Source: 'Osedax' symbiont bacterium Rs2_46_30_T18 (GTDB lineage Bacteria > Pseudomonadota > Gammaproteobacteria > Pseudomonadales > Balneatricaceae). Taken from it: DNA of 36,609 nucleotides. The DNA lies in NCBI GenBank assembly GCA_002163025.1, contig MABF01000327.1, forward strand, positions 1 to 36,609. The letters run 5' to 3'. Below are positions 25,842 to 34,005 of the stretch, one piece after another. A model generated the notes under the pieces. That model did no database searches and had not been told where the DNA came from. It was given only the letters and a program-made list of their open reading frames with translations. The position numbers were made by a program, and so were the translations under genes. Numbering within the stretch: position 1 is the first letter of the stretch; every line of letters starts with the position of its first letter.

Positions 25842-26390
25842 ATGAATATGAACATAAGACCTTATCAGGGTATAACCCCTACAATGGGAGAGAGGGTGTT
25901 TGTTGACCCTTCAGCTGTAGTGCTAGGCGATGTTACCTTAGCTGAAGACGTATCGGTGTGGCCTACAGCAGTAATACGCGGTGATGTGCAAAGTATCAGG
26001 GTCGGCGCCCGCACCAGTGTTCAAGATGGCGCTATCTTGCACGTCACTCACAGGGGAGCAGGTAATCCAGATGGCTTGGCGCTGAATATAGGATCAGAGG
26101 TGACTATTGGCCACTTAGCCATGTTGCACGGTTGCACAGTGGCCGATCAAGTGTTGATTGGCATGGGCTCCATGGTAATGGATGGGGCTGTGGTTGAATC
26201 GCAAGTAGTGTTGGGAGCGGGTTCTCTGGTACCTCCAGGTAAAGTATTGCGCAGTGGCTTTTTGTATGTGGGGCGTCCGGCCGTGCAAGTGCGGTCGCTG
26301 ACGCAGAAAGAACTAGATTTTTTTAGTTATACTGCCAGCAATTATGTGAGCTGGAAAAACCAGCATATGCAAGAGGACTGGGCAGAGTAA
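25842..26390 (+). CDS. Gamma-carbonic anhydrase family protein (YrdA-like)
   Basis: This 182-residue left-handed beta-helix protein is built from hexapeptide repeats. Metal-binding histidines occur in the expected places: ILHVTH, then IGHLAMLHGC. RGDVQSIRVGARTSVQDGA is the family's active-site segment. The length matches E. coli YrdA (184). Many family members bind zinc or iron, but carbonic anhydrase activity is not shown for all, so the reaction is uncertain. The start MNMNIRPYQG has ATGs at 25842 and 25848. It is divergent from prlC, the pairing seen around PA0066-PA0067 as I recall. Confidence 0.92.
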   Translation: MNMNIRPYQGITPTMGERVFVDPSAVVLGDVTLAEDVSVWPTAVIRGDVQSIRVGARTSVQDGAILHVTHRGAGNPDGLALNIGSEVTIGHLAMLHGCTVADQVLIGMGSMVMDGAVVESQVVLGAGSLVPPGKVLRSGFLYVGRPAVQVRSLTQKELDFFSYTASNYVSWKNQHMQEDWAE

Positions 26391-26624
26391 GCTGTTGTTG
26401 TAATCTGTAGATGTGCGTACAATGAGGCTTGATAATAATATAACAATACTTGAGATATTAGCGTTAAATAATTCGATAAACTGCAGTTATTTCAGTTCCT
26501 TAGGTGGTTGTAAGAGTCGTGTAAGCAGCTCATTTCACAACAGACGCTAAGATTGAATAGGTCTTAGCTCAGGGTGAGTAAGCTGCAGCAATCGGCTAAT
26601 ATTTCCGATGACGAAGAGAGCATC

Positions 26625-27287
26625 ATGAACATTCCACGTAAAATTATCATAGCCGATGACCATCCGCTGTTTAGACAGGCGCTATTGCAAACTCTAACCT
26701 TAAAGCTGCCCAATGTCAGTTGGCTAGAGGCGGAAACTGTCGAGCAACTACATACGCTATTGGATGAAAATAAAGATGCTGATCTGATTCTGCTGGATCT
26801 TAACATTCCCGGTGCGCACGGCTTCAATACACTGATAAAAACCCGTGGCCAGTACCCGCAGTTACCGGTGGTAGTGGTCTCTGCCTATGAAGATGATGAG
26901 ACGGTGATCAAAGCGATGGAATTTGGAGCGGCGGGCTTTGTGCCTAAATCAACGCCTGTTGAACTGATATTTAAGGCGATCCAGCAAGTGTTACAGGGGG
27001 GAACCTGGATCCCTGAACACATTAACTTGGATAGAGTCAGTGACAGGTCTGATATTGGCGTGCGGATTAGCTCGCTTACCCCGCAGCAACATAAAATATT
27101 ATTAATGTTTGCCGACGGGCTGTTAAATAAACAGATCGCTCACCAACTCAGTCTATCGGAGGCAACTGTTAAAGCGCATGCCACTGCGATCTTTCGTAAA
27201 TTGAAAGTACTGAACAGAACTCAAGCGGTAATCGCAATCAGTCAGTTGGAAGTAGGGTCATCGACTTTTGTCGCCAGTAGCGAATAA
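26625..27287 (+). CDS. LuxR-type response regulator, CrbR/ErdR-like
   Basis: This 220-residue regulator has a receiver domain (IIIADDHPLFRQAL; phospho-acceptor Asp58 in LILLDLNIPG) and a C-terminal LuxR helix-turn-helix (LTPQQHKILLMFADGLLNKQIAHQL). It resembles CrbR of Vibrio and ErdR of Pseudomonas, which activate acetyl-CoA synthetase genes for acetate use. The adjacent SLC5-type kinase and symporter support that. I take the ATG at 26625; a GTG at 26574 would add 17 residues before the receiver. Its last 46 bases overlap the kinase gene tail to tail. Confidence 0.88.
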   Translation: MNIPRKIIIADDHPLFRQALLQTLTLKLPNVSWLEAETVEQLHTLLDENKDADLILLDLNIPGAHGFNTLIKTRGQYPQLPVVVVSAYEDDETVIKAMEFGAAGFVPKSTPVELIFKAIQQVLQGGTWIPEHINLDRVSDRSDIGVRISSLTPQQHKILLMFADGLLNKQIAHQLSLSEATVKAHATAIFRKLKVLNRTQAVIAISQLEVGSSTFVASSE

Positions 27288-30200
27288 TCTTGTTGTAATT
27301 TTTCGCTCAAGAGAGCGCTGATTAATGCTCTTAAGATAGCGGGTTTCATTGGTTTTTTCATAAAACTAAAGCCCGCATTAGTCACTGCTGCGGGTAGATT
27401 CGGATCGGTTGTAGCGGTGATAAGCACTCCGGGAATTCCATAGGAAGAAGCGGCGTTTATCTCTGTCATCAGCTCGAGCCCGGTTTTATCCTCTGACAGT
27501 TGATAGTCCATCAACATAATGTCTATATCATCATTGTACTGGGCATAGTATTGAAGTGCTGAAGTGCTGTTATCACAGGCCAGTACCTGACACTGCCAGG
27601 CCTGTAACAGCGCTACCATGGCCGCCAGTACGTTGGGGTCGTTTTCAATGCACAACACAGTGACCCCCTGCAGGCTAATCACTCTGTTGCTGATTGCTTC
27701 AACAGTACTTTCTTGTGGCTCGGTGACCGGTACTTGAATGGAAAAATTACAGCCGCGGCCAGTGCCGGAGCGCAAACTGAGAGGATGGTTGAGTAATTGG
27801 CTAAAACCTTTAGCGATATTGAGCCCCAGCCCCAGGCCTTTAGAGCTACTTGGCTGATGAGTCGCTAACTGGGTAAACTGTTCAAAAACTAGCGACTGTT
27901 TATCCGCAGCTATGCCTGGGCCATTATCTAGCACTTCTATTGATACGCTATTTTCTAGTCTGCGACATCCAAGAAGCACTCGTCCGGGACTCGCATAGCG
28001 AAAGGCGTTGGCAATCAGATTGTGTAATATACGGCGCAGCAGGTTGGGGTCGGAATACAGCCATATTGAACTGGCCACAACGCGCATCTGCACGTCTTTA
28101 TACTCTTCGTGAGCATTGAACTCACTCATCAGAGAATCAAACAAATCCGCAATCGGGAAAGCTTTATTGTTGGCTCTGATATTACCACTTTCTATTCTGG
28201 CTATGTCCCCGAGCTCACTGAGTAAATTGCTGGCAACTTTTAATGAGTTTTCAATATTGGCAACATAACTTAAATGCTCTTTATTCAGGCCTTTCTGGAA
28301 AGACAGTGCCGTCGTAAACAGCCGCGCCGCCTCCAGCGGCTGCATTAGGTCGTGGCTACAGGCATTTAAGTACTGGCTTTTTTTAACATGTGCCTGGACG
28401 GCCTTGTGTCGCTCACTCTCCAGCTCTACATTGGAGCGCTCCAAACTCTGAGTGCGCTCTGAAACTCGCGTTTCCAAACCTTGGTTGGCTTCGCGCAATA
28501 CTTGTTCCGCTTGCCTGAAGGCGCTGATGTCGGAAAATAGCATCACATAGCCGCCATCGGGTAATGGGTTGCCCTGGATGCGTATGACTTGGCCGGTGTT
28601 GTTTTTTCGCTCAGAGCTATGCGAATTACCGCGCTGCAAATGTTGCAATTTACGGCGGATTATCTCCTCGTTGTCACCGGGACCGCAGCGTCCCTGTTCG
28701 ACATTATAGCGAATCAGCTTTTCGATCGGACAGCCGACGTATAACAGCGCTTGCGGGTAGTCAAAAAGCTCTATATACCTGCTGTTCCAGACCACTAAGT
28801 TCAGCTCGCTGTCTACTACAGAAATGCCCTCGGTACTGTTTTCGATGGCACTTTGCAGCAGCTTATGGCTAAACTGGGTACCATGAGTGGAGGCATCTTC
28901 GATCAGCATGACTATCTGATCTAAAGCGATATCTTTACCTTCAAGGGCCGATGAGATCACCAGTCTGGATGAAGCCGAGCCCATGACGCTGGTGAGCAGA
29001 TGTTCTGTGTGCTCGATGAGTTTGTAGTTGTAAAATCTACTGCCTAAATAGCGGGCGTCGTGAGAGGCGAGGAATTGTTTGAAACTCAACTCTGCCTTTT
29101 CTTCGCCGACAAATCTGGAAGCTAATAATTGAAGTTCACTGGCGTCAATGGTTCTGTTAATGGGCGGGCGCAAGCTATCCGGGCTCTGCCAGTCGAGGAA
29201 GTGGGAGGCCTGCACCCGCTCTTGCACACTCTGGCGACTAAACTGTGAAACCCACCACATAATAAATACGTTAACCACTAAGCTTAACAGTGAGACGGTG
29301 ATATGCGAGGGCAGAAAACTATCGCCAATAGGCTGTGGATACAAGCCAAATTGAGGCAGTAAGTTAAGAAAGAACCACAAGCTAAAACCCGCGCAGATAC
29401 CGCAGATGACACCGGTCAGGCTACTGGATCGCCAGTAAAACGCAGCCACTAATGCCGGGGTAAGTTGGGCTACAGCACCGAAGGCAATCTCTCCCAGGGA
29501 GGAGAGTTTATCGGGAGGAGCGACTAGAAAGACCCCGAACCCAAGCAGTATTACTAAGAATGCCAGTAGTTTTCTGACTGTCAGTAATCGGGCCTTAAAA
29601 CGGGAAAAGTCGCTGTTATTACCACGGTATTTACTAAATAGCAGAGGAAAAAATATTTCGTTGCTGAGCATAGTGCTCAAGGCGATAGCGGCAATAATTA
29701 CCATAGAGCTGGCGGCGGAAATCGCCCCCAGAAACGCCAGTAAGGTTAGCCAGAATTGATTTTCGTTGGCCGGTAGAAACAGTACGTATGCGTCGGCTGC
29801 CACTGAGTCGCCCAGTATCAACTGACCAGCAAGTCCCAGGGGAATCGCGAATAGCGCAAATATCAACAGATAGCCGGGAAAGATAAAGCGGGAAAGTTCT
29901 GAGTCACCGGCGTTGCGCAACTCGACCACCATCACTTGAAACTGTCGCGGCAAAGCCAAAAAGGCAGCCATGCCTATAATCAAACTGCCCAGCATAGTGG
30001 CTAGGTTTGGAAATTGTAGTTGCGCTGAGATCAGTGTATTGGCTTTAGACGCCTGCCATAAATCAGCCGGTGAATCATAGATAAAAAACACTACAAATAA
30101 CCCCAGCACTAGGAAGGCGATAAGCTTGACCAGTGACTCAAATGCGATCGCCAGCATGACCCCGGGGTGTCGCTCTGTGACATCCACCGACCTGATGCCA

Positions 30201-30712
30201 AACAGTAAGGTGAATCCTGCCAGTATGATGGTCACTGCTAAGCCGGTTTGCCAGGAGTTTAATTCTGGGGCAAGGGTCAGTTGTTGATAGGAGTAAACAA
30301 TAGCTTTTAGCTGTAGAGCGATGTAGGGCATAGTGCCAATCAGTGCTACTAAAGTGACAATCACAGCCAACTTTTGCGATTTTCCGTAACGGGCAGCCAG
30401 TAAATCGGCGATTGATGTAACGTTAAGTTTTAAACTGGTTTTAATGATTCGTTGTACAAAAGGCCAGGCGAAGACAAAAAGTAAGATAGGGCCGATAAAG
30501 ATAGGTAAGTGCGAAAAAATGCTAGTAGCCGCTTGAGCGGTGGTGCCTAAAAAGCTCCAGGAGGTACAGTAAACTCCCAGTGTCAGGGCGTAGATTATCG
30601 GCTGGCTGGTCTGCGGGATTTTGTGTCGATATTTATCACCGACGAAGGCAATCAAAAACAGCAGACCGATATAGCCGATGCTAATTGTTATCAATTGCCA
30701 GTTTTGAAACAT
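27242..30712 (-). CDS. SLC5-domain hybrid sensor histidine kinase, CrbS/MxtR-like
   Basis: This 1156-residue inner-membrane sensor has an N-terminal sodium/solute-symporter (SLC5) region of about 13 helices (residues 1-490), a likely STAC linker, a PAS domain near 620-740 and a coiled coil. The kinase core has His787 in CSHDLMQPLEAARLF, an ATPase domain (NLIANAFRYA, VLDNGPGI, GLGLGLNIAKGF), and a C-terminal receiver with Asp1069 in LMDYQLSED. This architecture is that of CrbS/MxtR, which with CrbR/ErdR controls acetate metabolism. It is downstream of a small protein and the symporter, on their strand. Its stop lies inside the regulator gene. Confidence 0.93.
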   Translation of the reverse strand: MFQNWQLITISIGYIGLLFLIAFVGDKYRHKIPQTSQPIIYALTLGVYCTSWSFLGTTAQAATSIFSHLPIFIGPILLFVFAWPFVQRIIKTSLKLNVTSIADLLAARYGKSQKLAVIVTLVALIGTMPYIALQLKAIVYSYQQLTLAPELNSWQTGLAVTIILAGFTLLFGIRSVDVTERHPGVMLAIAFESLVKLIAFLVLGLFVVFFIYDSPADLWQASKANTLISAQLQFPNLATMLGSLIIGMAAFLALPRQFQVMVVELRNAGDSELSRFIFPGYLLIFALFAIPLGLAGQLILGDSVAADAYVLFLPANENQFWLTLLAFLGAISAASSMVIIAAIALSTMLSNEIFFPLLFSKYRGNNSDFSRFKARLLTVRKLLAFLVILLGFGVFLVAPPDKLSSLGEIAFGAVAQLTPALVAAFYWRSSSLTGVICGICAGFSLWFFLNLLPQFGLYPQPIGDSFLPSHITVSLLSLVVNVFIMWWVSQFSRQSVQERVQASHFLDWQSPDSLRPPINRTIDASELQLLASRFVGEEKAELSFKQFLASHDARYLGSRFYNYKLIEHTEHLLTSVMGSASSRLVISSALEGKDIALDQIVMLIEDASTHGTQFSHKLLQSAIENSTEGISVVDSELNLVVWNSRYIELFDYPQALLYVGCPIEKLIRYNVEQGRCGPGDNEEIIRRKLQHLQRGNSHSSERKNNTGQVIRIQGNPLPDGGYVMLFSDISAFRQAEQVLREANQGLETRVSERTQSLERSNVELESERHKAVQAHVKKSQYLNACSHDLMQPLEAARLFTTALSFQKGLNKEHLSYVANIENSLKVASNLLSELGDIARIESGNIRANNKAFPIADLFDSLMSEFNAHEEYKDVQMRVVASSIWLYSDPNLLRRILHNLIANAFRYASPGRVLLGCRRLENSVSIEVLDNGPGIAADKQSLVFEQFTQLATHQPSSSKGLGLGLNIAKGFSQLLNHPLSLRSGTGRGCNFSIQVPVTEPQESTVEAISNRVISLQGVTVLCIENDPNVLAAMVALLQAWQCQVLACDNSTSALQYYAQYNDDIDIMLMDYQLSEDKTGLELMTEINAASSYGIPGVLITATTDPNLPAAVTNAGFSFMKKPMKPAILRALISALLSEKLQQDYSLLATKVDDPTSN

Positions 30713-30761: not shown

Positions 30762-31199
30762 TTACTGGGTAGTGCTAGTAAACTCACTGATATAAGAACC
30801 GCCTTTAATATTGGCAATAATACGCAGTTTCTGATCCGAGCCGGGCTTCTCGATAAGCGCACCCAAATTGGTTTTTGCCCGCCAGTAGTAAGGGTTATCT
30901 GTCATACCCAGAGAGAAACTGGTGGCGTTATTGTCCTGGTCGACTAAAAATAAGGTGGCGGTATCCAGAGGGTAGGTGCTGTTAATTAACGTCTCGCCGC
31001 GCTGATGAGAAATGCTCAGTAAAAACTCGTCTGATTCTAAAATGCAGTTTTTAGCTTTAATATCACACTGATTTTGTACGCTCATGGTGAATATTCTCTT
31101 TTCAGCAGCTTGCTGTTCCTCGTACATATCGGTAATGGCAAAGCCTATTATTGCTAAAAACGGCGCGATAAAAATGGCAATTTTGGTGTGTTTGTTCAC
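30762..31199 (-). CDS. Hypothetical membrane-anchored periplasmic protein
   Basis: This 145-residue protein has one N-terminal hydrophobic segment (residues 7-23, IAIFIAPFLAIIGFAIT) and a polar domain that is probably periplasmic. The domain contains two cysteines, in NQCDIKAKNCIL, that could form a disulfide. The rest is beta-rich, with LLSISHQRGETLINSTYPL and YYWRAKTNLG. I do not recognise the family. It lies between the symporter and sensor kinase genes on their strand, 49 bases before the kinase, so a role in symporter or kinase function is a fair guess only. Confidence 0.7.
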   Translation of the reverse strand: MNKHTKIAIFIAPFLAIIGFAITDMYEEQQAAEKRIFTMSVQNQCDIKAKNCILESDEFLLSISHQRGETLINSTYPLDTATLFLVDQDNNATSFSLGMTDNPYYWRAKTNLGALIEKPGSDQKLRIIANIKGGSYISEFTSTTQ

Positions 31200-31382: not shown

Positions 31383-31404
31383 GATAGGCCCCGAGGGGCC
31401 TATC
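31383..31404 (-). terminator. Hairpin after the symporter gene
   Basis: GATAGGCCC pairs perfectly with GGGCCTATC around a 4-base loop, about 18 bases after the symporter stop. On the minus strand the stem is followed by CTTTCACTACTA, only moderately T-rich. It may weaken read-through into the small protein and kinase genes rather than block it. Confidence 0.6.
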
Positions 31405-31421
31405 ATGTGGATCAATTATTT

Positions 31422-33161
31422 TTAGTGATCATGTGCTGCCGAGACACCACCTGCTGGGGTACGGAAGTTATCCACCATCTGCTGTATTTCTACAGGAGCT
31501 GGTCCAGTTACTTTAGTGACTGCGAAAGCGACTGCAAAGTTAACCACTGCACCTATAACACCAAAGGCGTTAGGTGAAATTCCGAAGAACCAGTTTGGAT
31601 CCATACCGCCGAGGAAAGAAGTACCGGGAATAAACATAATGCCTTTGTGCATAAACACATACAACATCGTGATGCCGATACCAGAGCACATGCCCCAGAC
31701 TGCTGCTACACCGCTTACTTTACGCGAGAAGATACCCATCATTAGTGCCGGGAAGATAGAAGCTGCGGCCAATCCGAAGGCCAGGGCGACCGTCCCCGCG
31801 GCAAACCCAGGCGGATTAAGCCCCAGATAACCAGAGACTAAGATGGCAATGGTCATCACTACTCGTCCAGCCAGTAACTCATTTTTCTCTGAAAGATCAG
31901 GCATAAATACCCCTTTCATTAAATCGTGTGACACTGAGGAGGAGATGGCTAAAAGCAGACCAGCAGCAGTTGACAGTGCAGCAGCCAAACCACCGGCAGC
32001 GACTAACGCGATTACCCAGTTAGGTAAATTTGCGATCGCCGGGTTGGCAAGTACCATAATATCACGGTCAACTTTGACCATTTCATTGCTAGCCTTGTCA
32101 GCTGTGTATTGGATTTTGCCATCACCGTTTTTGTCTTCGAACTTCAACAGACCGGTTTTTTCCCAATCTTTGAACCACTGTGGGCGTTCAGCATAGACCA
32201 AGTTCTCGCCAGCTGCAGGCTCGATTGTGCTCATCAAGTTCAAGCGCGCCATAGCGCCAACTGCCGGGGCAACTGTGTATAACAAAGCGATAAATACTAG
32301 CGCGTAACCCGCTGAAGAACGTGCTGCTTTAACTGATGGTACAGTGAAGAAGCGCATGATGACATGTGGTAGGCCGGCAGTACCGATCATTAGCGATAAA
32401 GTGTACGCGATCATGTTGGCGTTATTGCCCAACTGGCCAGTCGTGTATTCTTTAAAGCCTAATTCAGTCACAACCAGGTCTAACTTATCCAGCAAGTACA
32501 TGCCACTGCCATCAGACAGAGTACTACCCAGACCAAGTTGTGGGATTGGGTTACCCGTCAACTGCATGGAAATGAATACCGCGGGAATAGTGTAGGCGAA
32601 GATCAGAACACAGTACTGAGCAATCTGGGTATAAGTAATACCTTTCATGCCACCTAGTACAGCGTAGACCCATACAACACCCATGCCTATGCCAAGGCCA
32701 AGGCCGTAATCTACTTCTAAAAAGCGTGAGAAAGCTACGCCAACACCTTTCATTTGACCGATAATATAAGTCAGAGAGGCGATAATCAGACAGGCAACTG
32801 CAACGATTCGAGCGCCTTTAGAGTAGTATCTGTCACCGATAAATTCAGGTACTGTAAATTTGCCGTGCTTACGCATATAAGGCGCTAAACACATCGCCAG
32901 TATTACGTAACCGCCGGTCCAGCCCATCAGGAATACAGAACCACCGTAACCTAAGAAAGCAATTAAACCCGCCATCGAGATGAAAGAGGCGGCACTCATC
33001 CAGTCGGCTGCGATAGCCATACCGTTTTGCAGAGGGCCAATACCGCCACCGGCGACGTAGAATTCTTTTGTTGATCCCGCGCGCGCCCACCAGGCAATGG
33101 CGAAATACATTGCAAAAGAGCCGAAAACGGCAATGTAAGTATAAAGTTTTAACTCATCCAT
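31422..33161 (-). CDS. Sodium:solute symporter, VC_2705 family (ActP-like)
   Basis: This 579-residue SLC5 transporter has about 13 membrane helices. The N-terminal part reads WWARAGSTKEFYVAGGGIGPLQNGMAIAADWMSAASFI, the signature of ActP-like symporters. A hydrophilic loop near residues 315-365 contains DKNGDGKIQYTADK, an EF-hand-like sequence. The combination with a DUF4212 partner defines the VC_2705 subfamily; acetate or another short carboxylate is the likely substrate, by analogy and by the neighbouring acetate-type sensor. The ATG follows a GAGGAG ribosome site. The DUF4212 gene ends three bases upstream. Confidence 0.93.
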   Translation of the reverse strand: MDELKLYTYIAVFGSFAMYFAIAWWARAGSTKEFYVAGGGIGPLQNGMAIAADWMSAASFISMAGLIAFLGYGGSVFLMGWTGGYVILAMCLAPYMRKHGKFTVPEFIGDRYYSKGARIVAVACLIIASLTYIIGQMKGVGVAFSRFLEVDYGLGLGIGMGVVWVYAVLGGMKGITYTQIAQYCVLIFAYTIPAVFISMQLTGNPIPQLGLGSTLSDGSGMYLLDKLDLVVTELGFKEYTTGQLGNNANMIAYTLSLMIGTAGLPHVIMRFFTVPSVKAARSSAGYALVFIALLYTVAPAVGAMARLNLMSTIEPAAGENLVYAERPQWFKDWEKTGLLKFEDKNGDGKIQYTADKASNEMVKVDRDIMVLANPAIANLPNWVIALVAAGGLAAALSTAAGLLLAISSSVSHDLMKGVFMPDLSEKNELLAGRVVMTIAILVSGYLGLNPPGFAAGTVALAFGLAAASIFPALMMGIFSRKVSGVAAVWGMCSGIGITMLYVFMHKGIMFIPGTSFLGGMDPNWFFGISPNAFGVIGAVVNFAVAFAVTKVTGPAPVEIQQMVDNFRTPAGGVSAAHDH

Positions 33162-33164
33162 AAA

Positions 33165-33416
33165 TTACTCCTCTACACCGTATTTTTTATCTAATTGATT
33201 CATTTTATATGAATACCAGAACACTAGAGCGACAAAAGTGACGATAGATCCCTGTTGTGCGAACCAGAAGCCAAGTTTGTAACCGCCTAATTTAATTGCA
33301 TTTAGTGGCTCAACTAACACTAAGCCAAAGCCATATGAAACGACGAACCAAATGATCAGGCAGGTCATGATTATGCGCAGGTTGTCCTGCCAATACGATG
33401 AATTGTCTTTCACCAT
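33165..33416 (-). CDS. DUF4212 small symporter subunit
   Basis: This 83-residue membrane protein has two hydrophobic segments (IIMTCLIIWFVVSYGFGLVL and IVTFVALVFWYSY) joined by a loop with GGYKLGFWFAQQGS. It matches DUF4212, found next to VC_2705-type symporters and thought to be a small accessory subunit. I start it at the ATG at 33416 (MVKDNSSYWQ), which has a near-perfect GAAGGAG ribosome site. The longer frame from 33509 adds 31 residues without family resemblance. It is the first gene of the symporter operon. Confidence 0.9.
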   Translation of the reverse strand: MVKDNSSYWQDNLRIIMTCLIIWFVVSYGFGLVLVEPLNAIKLGGYKLGFWFAQQGSIVTFVALVFWYSYKMNQLDKKYGVEE

Positions 33417-34005
33417 AATCTCCTTCAAGCACATTATCTGGTGATAATGTGCCATGCTGTTGTTTTTATATTTATGGATGGCTTCTCTGAAGATTGCTGT
33501 GAAAATCACACTGCTCTAAAGATAACACCGATAACTGAAAGTGAACCTGTAGTGCTAACGCCGACAGATTTACCCTCTATACAGGCTAGCAATCTTTATG
33601 CTTACGAGAAATTAAACTTTAGTCTTATAGCTTGTCGTTAATTAGGGTTACTCGGCCTACACCGAGCTAAAACAGGAGCACAGAGACTGCTGTTGGATGA
33701 AAAAATACGCCGGGGATACGGAAGTTTTGCTCGGCAATGTGGTAATTATCAAAATTTTTGAAGGGTGCAATAGCATCCTGTTTCGTATTTCAATTGCAGC
33801 TTTAATGCAAGTTAAAATCAGCTATTGACTGTTGATTTAAGCGCTCTGCAACGGCGGTTGTAAAAGGCAATAGTGAACAAGATAAAGCTGTAGGGGTTAG
33901 CAGTAGAGGGTTAGTTGGAGGTGGTAGCACTGCAAAAAAATCCGACAGTGAATGTCTCAGCTAAAGACCTTCGATAGCTGAGACTGATTGCAAGTGCTGG
34001 CCTTG
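33417..34005. other. Long intergenic region between symporter operon and rsmD
   Basis: This 589-base region must hold the symporter-operon promoter. It contains a short palindrome, TGTGAAAATCACA (33498-33510), a small hairpin (CTCGG 33651 / CCGAG 33666) and a 10-bp perfect hairpin near its right end. A 43-codon frame at 33697-33828 starts MKKYAGDTEVLL but has no strong support. I see no known gene in it. Confidence 0.45.
33954..33984 (-). terminator. Hairpin after rsmD
   Basis: GTCTCAGCTA pairs perfectly with TAGCTGAGAC, 10 bp, around an 11-base loop, 22 bases beyond the rsmD stop. On the minus strand a run of seven T residues lies some 15 bases further, inside a second weaker stem. This suits the end of the M16-like/rsmD transcript. 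Confidence 0.55.

Follow-up and report, generated by a model that had tools for sequence, protein, structure and literature searches.

A genus-wide 46-base tail-to-tail coding overlap between a CrbR-like response regulator gene and a facing CrbS-like hybrid kinase gene

The genes of a two-component pair usually lie in one operon. For the convergent arfA-mscL pair of Gammaproteobacteria, an antisense effect has been measured in E. coli, as reported in PMC10070815. Convergent genes without a terminator form one of the excludon layouts described in PMC7154746, and in the account given in PMC2174442 mutated stop codons are held responsible for part of the overlaps, selection contributing as well. 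In the titles and abstracts of the papers that our literature searches found, one of which deals with an antisense RNA directed by a response regulator, there was neither a convergent overlap of a kinase and a regulator gene nor a two-component gene pair forming an excludon.

The window analysed here, a stretch of 36,609 nucleotides from 'Osedax' symbiont bacterium Rs2_46_30_T18 (contig MABF01000327.1), contains a response regulator gene of the CrbR/ErdR type (26625..27287, plus strand; 220 aa, receiver and LuxR-type HTH by Pfam) that faces the gene of a CrbS/MxtR-like hybrid histidine kinase (27242..30712, minus strand; 1156 aa, with a transporter-like N-terminus, PAS, HisKA, HATPase and receiver). 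The regulator ORF ends at 27287 with TAA and that of the kinase at 27242 with TGA, and they have 46 bases in common (27242..27287, coding on both strands), exactly as the initial annotation had described. At its other end, the regulator was listed with an in-frame GTG start at 26574, but the start is better set at the ATG at 26625, since the seven copies of the genus align from there. The overlap comprises the 14 C-terminal residues of the regulator, and residues 1143–1156 of the kinase plus one base of codon 1142. The Pfam receiver of the kinase occupies residues 1019–1131 of 1156, so that the overlap starts about 11 residues beyond it, and the GerE match of the regulator (Pfam) also stops upstream. 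As both Pfam domains end before the overlap, this encodes protein tails and not the receiver; the earlier statement that the common DNA encodes the C-terminus of the regulator and the end of the kinase receiver thus stands for the regulator only. Across the overlap, codon positions 1, 2 and 3 of the regulator face positions 2, 1 and 3 of the kinase, placing wobble opposite wobble. The arrangement is a convergent coding overlap in the strict sense, i.e. two real genes on opposite strands with common 3' coding bases.

Both proteins could be tentatively attributed to a family, with scores below the curated cut-offs. The best NCBIfam match of the regulator was ErdR (E 6.6e-74; 248.2 bits, below the curated cut-off of 390), and that of the kinase was the NahK/ErcS group (357.5 bits, below the curated cut-off of 400). 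Pfam identified PAS_7, HisKA, HATPase_c and Response_reg domains in the kinase. At its N-terminus no Pfam match was found, the SSF family not being reached there, but this region matched the solved chain 10ed_A, annotated as 'histidine kinase' (E 4.1e-54; 8.5e-61 in the profile search) and presumably an SLC5 kinase. The expected motifs are kept, namely Asp58 in the regulator and, in the kinase, SHDL (His787), NLIANA, DNGPG and the MDY of the receiver (Asp1069); we take Asp58, His787 and Asp1069 to be the acting residues of the regulator, the kinase and the kinase receiver, respectively. Judging from these resemblances, the two genes encode a CrbS/CrbR-like pair with a probable acetate-related role. 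That they are partners, as first proposed, agrees with the family matches and with their conserved adjacency.

The surrounding genes are compatible with such a role. Upstream of the kinase lie, all on the minus strand, a gene for a 145-aa protein (30762..31199; no Pfam family above cut-off), a sodium:solute symporter gene (31422..33161; Pfam SSF) and a small gene (33165..33509; Pfam DUF4212), the last two of which we presume to be ActP-like and YjcH-like, respectively. The 145-aa gene is found between kinase and actP in 5/7 genomes of the genus, adjoins the kinase in Thalassotalea, Parashewanella and three Colwellia loci, and possibly encodes an accessory protein; a label as FixH was dropped as it had no Pfam support. 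Thalassotalea ND16A shows the same gene order (regulator, kinase, 145-aa gene, actP). Just 3' of the actP stop, a GC-rich hairpin was noticed by eye at about 31383–31404 (minus strand). It failed the T-run rule of our scan but may be a terminator, a hint that kinase and actP are possibly transcribed apart. The published CrbR-dependent promoter motif is known as ACTU (PMC5715377). With a matrix built from five published sites, the best match in the whole 36.6-kb window (17.4 bits) fell upstream of the yjcH-actP unit (33611..33627, minus strand), making this a candidate CrbR site. In the genus, the cassette adjoins the kinase in four further genomes, each of which carries a match (17.4–17.9) at the corresponding place, so that the motif precedes actP in 5/5 such genomes (doubled in one). 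In G005 and G004, actP, yjcH and the 145-aa gene were not detected beside the kinase and no ACTU match above 12.8 was present in the 18-kb loci, although the overlap is intact in both; in 800 kb of G005, one ACTU match of at least 17 was found.

The sample available for the genus consisted of seven genomes, several of them fragmented drafts. The window-type pair (henceforth copy A) overlaps in all seven, by 46 bases in six and by 43 in one, with both frames conserved up to the overlap and free of earlier stops in the seven assemblies, while the six other copy A kinases are 74–92% identical to that of the window. The conservation check proposed in the initial annotation therefore gave a clear result: presence in 7/7 genomes excludes a recent stop-codon loss unique to one strain and, if the overlap had a single origin, makes it older than the split of these species. 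All seven genomes also carry a second facing kinase-regulator pair of the same kind (copy B), with junctions that are gaps of 27–255 bases in six genomes and a 12-base overlap in one, and with no ActP-like gene detected beside it in the loci examined.

To place this arrangement among relatives, we searched for the same pair in the family and in a set of named relatives. A regulator match was obtained in 106 genomes of the family, G011 and G096 being left out. Within other genera of the family, a facing kinase end lay at most 350 bases from the regulator in 73/97 loci, with gaps of 2–349 bases; only facing kinases were sought at these junctions, so that 'facing' holds there by construction. The remaining 24/97 loci, in which no such kinase end was found at that distance, include short loci and unlinked genes. 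In at least one family genome, G053, the two genes lie far apart on the single contig. For the 78 named relatives (two members of the genus excluded), a kinase was present within the fetched flank in 22, and 21 of these were in facing orientation: 15 at distances of -4 to 285 bases, two of them Nitrincola records from the window's own family, and six facing 2.1–2.9 kb apart, with one further pair codirectional. In the other 56/78 loci, among which are two of Colwellia and some truncated ones, the fetched flank contained no kinase. The nine Colwelliaceae and Parashewanella loci with measured junctions all have the pair facing, with gaps of 1–285 bases. In Endozoicomonas ascidiicola, the facing pair overlaps by 4 bases, a short overlap that seems to be of separate origin. 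A facing arrangement of crbR and crbS is thus widespread but not universal, and the long overlap is confined, among the relatives examined, to copy A of the genus. As none of the 73 measured family junctions overlaps, the idea that the overlap is the ancestral state of the family found no support.

A tree built from 72 regulators placed copies A and B with those of Colwelliaceae, Parashewanella and Shewanella marisflavi (support 99), apart from the family type (100); this was a quick tree that took 22/96 family and 36/78 named regulators and drew a long-branch warning from the program. This position led us to reject the window copy as the family's own CrbS/R, and it is likely, on this phylogenetic evidence, that copy A was acquired horizontally.

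The two stops of copy A are embedded in codons of the opposite gene. The TGA of the kinase (27242..27244, minus strand) pairs with the T that closes regulator codon 206 and the CA that opens Gln207, and the codon of kinase Tyr1143 (27284..27286, minus strand) gives in antisense the TA of the regulator stop TAA (27285–27287). This tyrosine is conserved in 24/24 aligned kinases of the same type and is missing from five kinases of other types (L182, L191, L194, L213, L232). It is followed by 2–6 residues in the nine Colwelliaceae and Parashewanella kinases, 3–8 in copy B and 12–13 in copy A; the kinase of Shewanella marisflavi has 16 and no overlap, so that a long tail need not stem from overlap. 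On the regulator side, Gln207 is present in 7/7 copies A and in 11/12 of the nearest relatives, the position being occupied by Glu or Asp in 7/7 copies B and by Arg in 92/96 family-type regulators. The T before Gln207 is kept in 7/7 copies A even though residue 206 varies (Ser, Gly, Asn, Ala), and without it the kinase frame would extend by 6 to 33 codons. Nevertheless, the same T is found in 6/11 of the nearest relatives with Gln and no overlap (6/65 of all Gln-bearing named regulators), which makes its constancy only modest evidence for a guarded kinase stop and suggests that a stop in antisense already existed at this point when the overlap arose. Invariant third bases were seen in only 2/27 variable regulator codons (with one genome not gap-corrected), 206 and 217; that both belong to the overlap or its border counts against neutral retention. 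With the stops interlocked in the partner's conserved codons, retention of the overlap can be explained without invoking regulation.

At the nucleotide level, the overlap does not stand out. Among the seven copies A, fourfold sites differ by 0.685 in the overlap versus 0.608 in the rest of the regulator, and third positions by 0.569 versus 0.536. Third positions thus vary as freely as elsewhere, and the idea that the overlap harbours a conserved RNA or DNA element was rejected; the test is blind to the pairing of fully complementary RNAs, as perfect complementarity needs no extra constraint. Searches for terminator-like sites returned none in 26300–27700 of the window, nor, for the window copy, any in the 400 bases that follow each of the two stops. 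Over the same distance (up to 400 bases downstream), candidates were found in the copies A on the plus strand in 4/7 and on the minus strand in 3/7 (expected 1.4 and 1.1), but their positions differ or the sites are weak; a conserved terminator at a common strong site of the copy A junction was thereby dismissed. Terminator-like hairpins are more frequent at the family junctions, with 45/73 on the plus strand (expected 11.6), 30/73 on the minus strand (expected 3.0) and 26/73 on both. Near relatives of copy A have them in 4/13 (plus) and 0/13 (minus; expected 1.3 and 0.6), and copy B junctions in 1/7 on either strand; the shuffles behind these expected counts preserve single-base composition only. 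Given the lack of a terminator-like site at the window junction, the overlapping transcripts that the initial annotation had proposed are plausible: the two facing transcripts may meet there, as in an excludon, but Rho or polymerase collision could end them.

Taken together, the data lead us to consider it likely that this is a facing pair of the CrbS/CrbR type, in which the overlap arose by loss of an ancestral spacer and has been kept by the interlocked stops. The ancestor of the genus would have lost the spacer between the facing genes, the original kinase stop included. The kinase frame would then have run antisense into the last codons of the regulator as far as the first stop, opposite Gln207, leaving the regulator to end in a stop written opposite the conserved Tyr codon of the kinase. 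Persistence, which we infer to be neutral, would be due mainly to the rarity with which single substitutions undo stops set in conserved codons of the partner. The two mRNAs are probably complementary at their 3' ends, any mutual control exerted in this way being at most secondary. No direct trace of the deletion event was found. A variant in which the spacer loss removed a bidirectional terminator was abandoned, given that the nearest spacer-bearing relatives show few hairpins and only the distant family type supports it.

The main competing explanation is a functional excludon, in which the two convergent mRNAs extend into one another and each limits its counterpart, either through colliding polymerases or through duplex formation followed by RNase III cleavage, resulting in reciprocal control of sensor and regulator; the coding overlap would then be the most extreme case of a layout under selection in the wider group. 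The junction hairpins that abound in the other genera of the family (45/73 and 30/73) would separate the transcripts and speak against this, as do the terminator candidates in copies A of the genus itself (4/7 and 3/7) and the fact that the pair is not always linked, with 56/78 named loci lacking a kinase in the fetched flank and the genes apart in G053. It does draw support from the window junction, where no terminator-like site was found in 26300–27700 or within 400 bases past either stop, from the paucity of junction hairpins in the near relatives of copy A (4/13 and 0/13), from the facing orientation of 21/22 kinases present in the flanks of named relatives, and from the precedents of arfA-mscL (PMC10070815) and of the terminator-less convergent layout as outlined in PMC7154746. 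Moreover, the recurrence of the facing layout in several families would not be readily predicted by drift alone and counts against a neutral view. On balance, we regard a functional excludon as unlikely. A more specific proposal, that the facing layout has been selected to tie the dose of the sensor to its regulator and that the overlap of the genus tightens this tie, with a two-component system doubling as an excludon, appears to us quite improbable. With the sequence comparisons at hand, a regulatory reading of the overlap, through the transcriptional interference or RNA pairing suggested in the initial annotation, is not favoured over spacer loss followed by neutral retention.

The overlap might also be a mere by-product of a long kinase tail with a function of its own, e.g. 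in docking between kinase and regulator. The stretches YSLL and PTS of the tail are identical in the seven copies A, but much of what is conserved follows from what the opposite strand has to encode, namely codons of the regulator and the stop that ends them, and the middle of the tail varies freely; the tail of Shewanella marisflavi, long, different and without overlap, would fit a function, yet the kinases of copy B and of Colwelliaceae end shorter and are unrelated after the Tyr. We therefore see little probability in a functional tail. The least credible explanation is an artefact of assembly or gene calling, in which the terminal part of one frame would be spurious: the genome set does include several fragmented drafts, but the same overlap recurs in seven assemblies whose other copy A kinases are only 74–92% identical to that of the window, with frames conserved and no earlier stop, which leaves such an error with a negligible likelihood. 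Long overlaps of this kind are rare. In 800 kb of the sister genome G005, 109 convergent pairs were counted, of which four overlapped, by 29, 7, 7 and 4 bases, and none (0/109) by 30 or more; the count comes from this one genome and a home-made hexamer gene finder with a coding density of 0.76, so that short genes will have been missed. One such long overlap somewhere in a genome is still unsurprising, but the rarity counts against the favoured reading in that special retention may have played a part.

Because its genes face each other in several families and overlap in one genus, this sensor-regulator pair offers a natural case in which to ask whether convergent transcription between functional partners is regulatory or simply tolerated. 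Among its relatives, the same pair presents gaps of 1 to 349 bases, junctions with and without hairpins, unlinked genes and a true overlap.

Compared with known systems, the locus is closest in content to the CrbS/CrbR (MxtR/ErdR) acetate system of Vibrio and Pseudomonas, which, as described in PMC5436829 and PMC5715377, it resembles in domain layout, in an ErdR-like regulator scoring below the curated cut-off and in a candidate ACTU-like site upstream of the actP unit. It differs in arrangement from the Pseudomonas loci examined, where no kinase was present in the fetched flank except for one codirectional gene (L245), whereas here the genes face and overlap. As in arfA-mscL, according to PMC10070815, the genes are facing, their ends overlap in some species and are merely close in others, and the 3' ends, here as predicted from the genes, are complementary; unlike here, arfA and mscL do not form a sensor-regulator pair, and for them an antisense effect has been measured in E. 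coli. With the excludon layouts presented in PMC7154746 it has in common the convergent genes, a junction (that of the window) where no terminator-like site was found, and predicted overlapping 3' ends. For MW1733 and menE-menC-ytkD-MW1731, a noncontiguous operon in the same source, polymerase interference and RNase III processing were measured, in contrast to the coding ends alone considered here. This locus could work like arfA-mscL or the excludon cases, by analogy. The convergent overlaps surveyed in 58 prokaryotes (PMC2174442) resemble it in being antisense coding overlaps, apparently of the 123:213 phase, with a stop-codon change as origin, while the present one, in contrast to those as presented there, joins functional partners and has been followed through a genus. 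The overlap is best read as ordinary but genus-wide, an instance of an already known kind, the convergent coding overlap, here between CrbS/CrbR-like partners.
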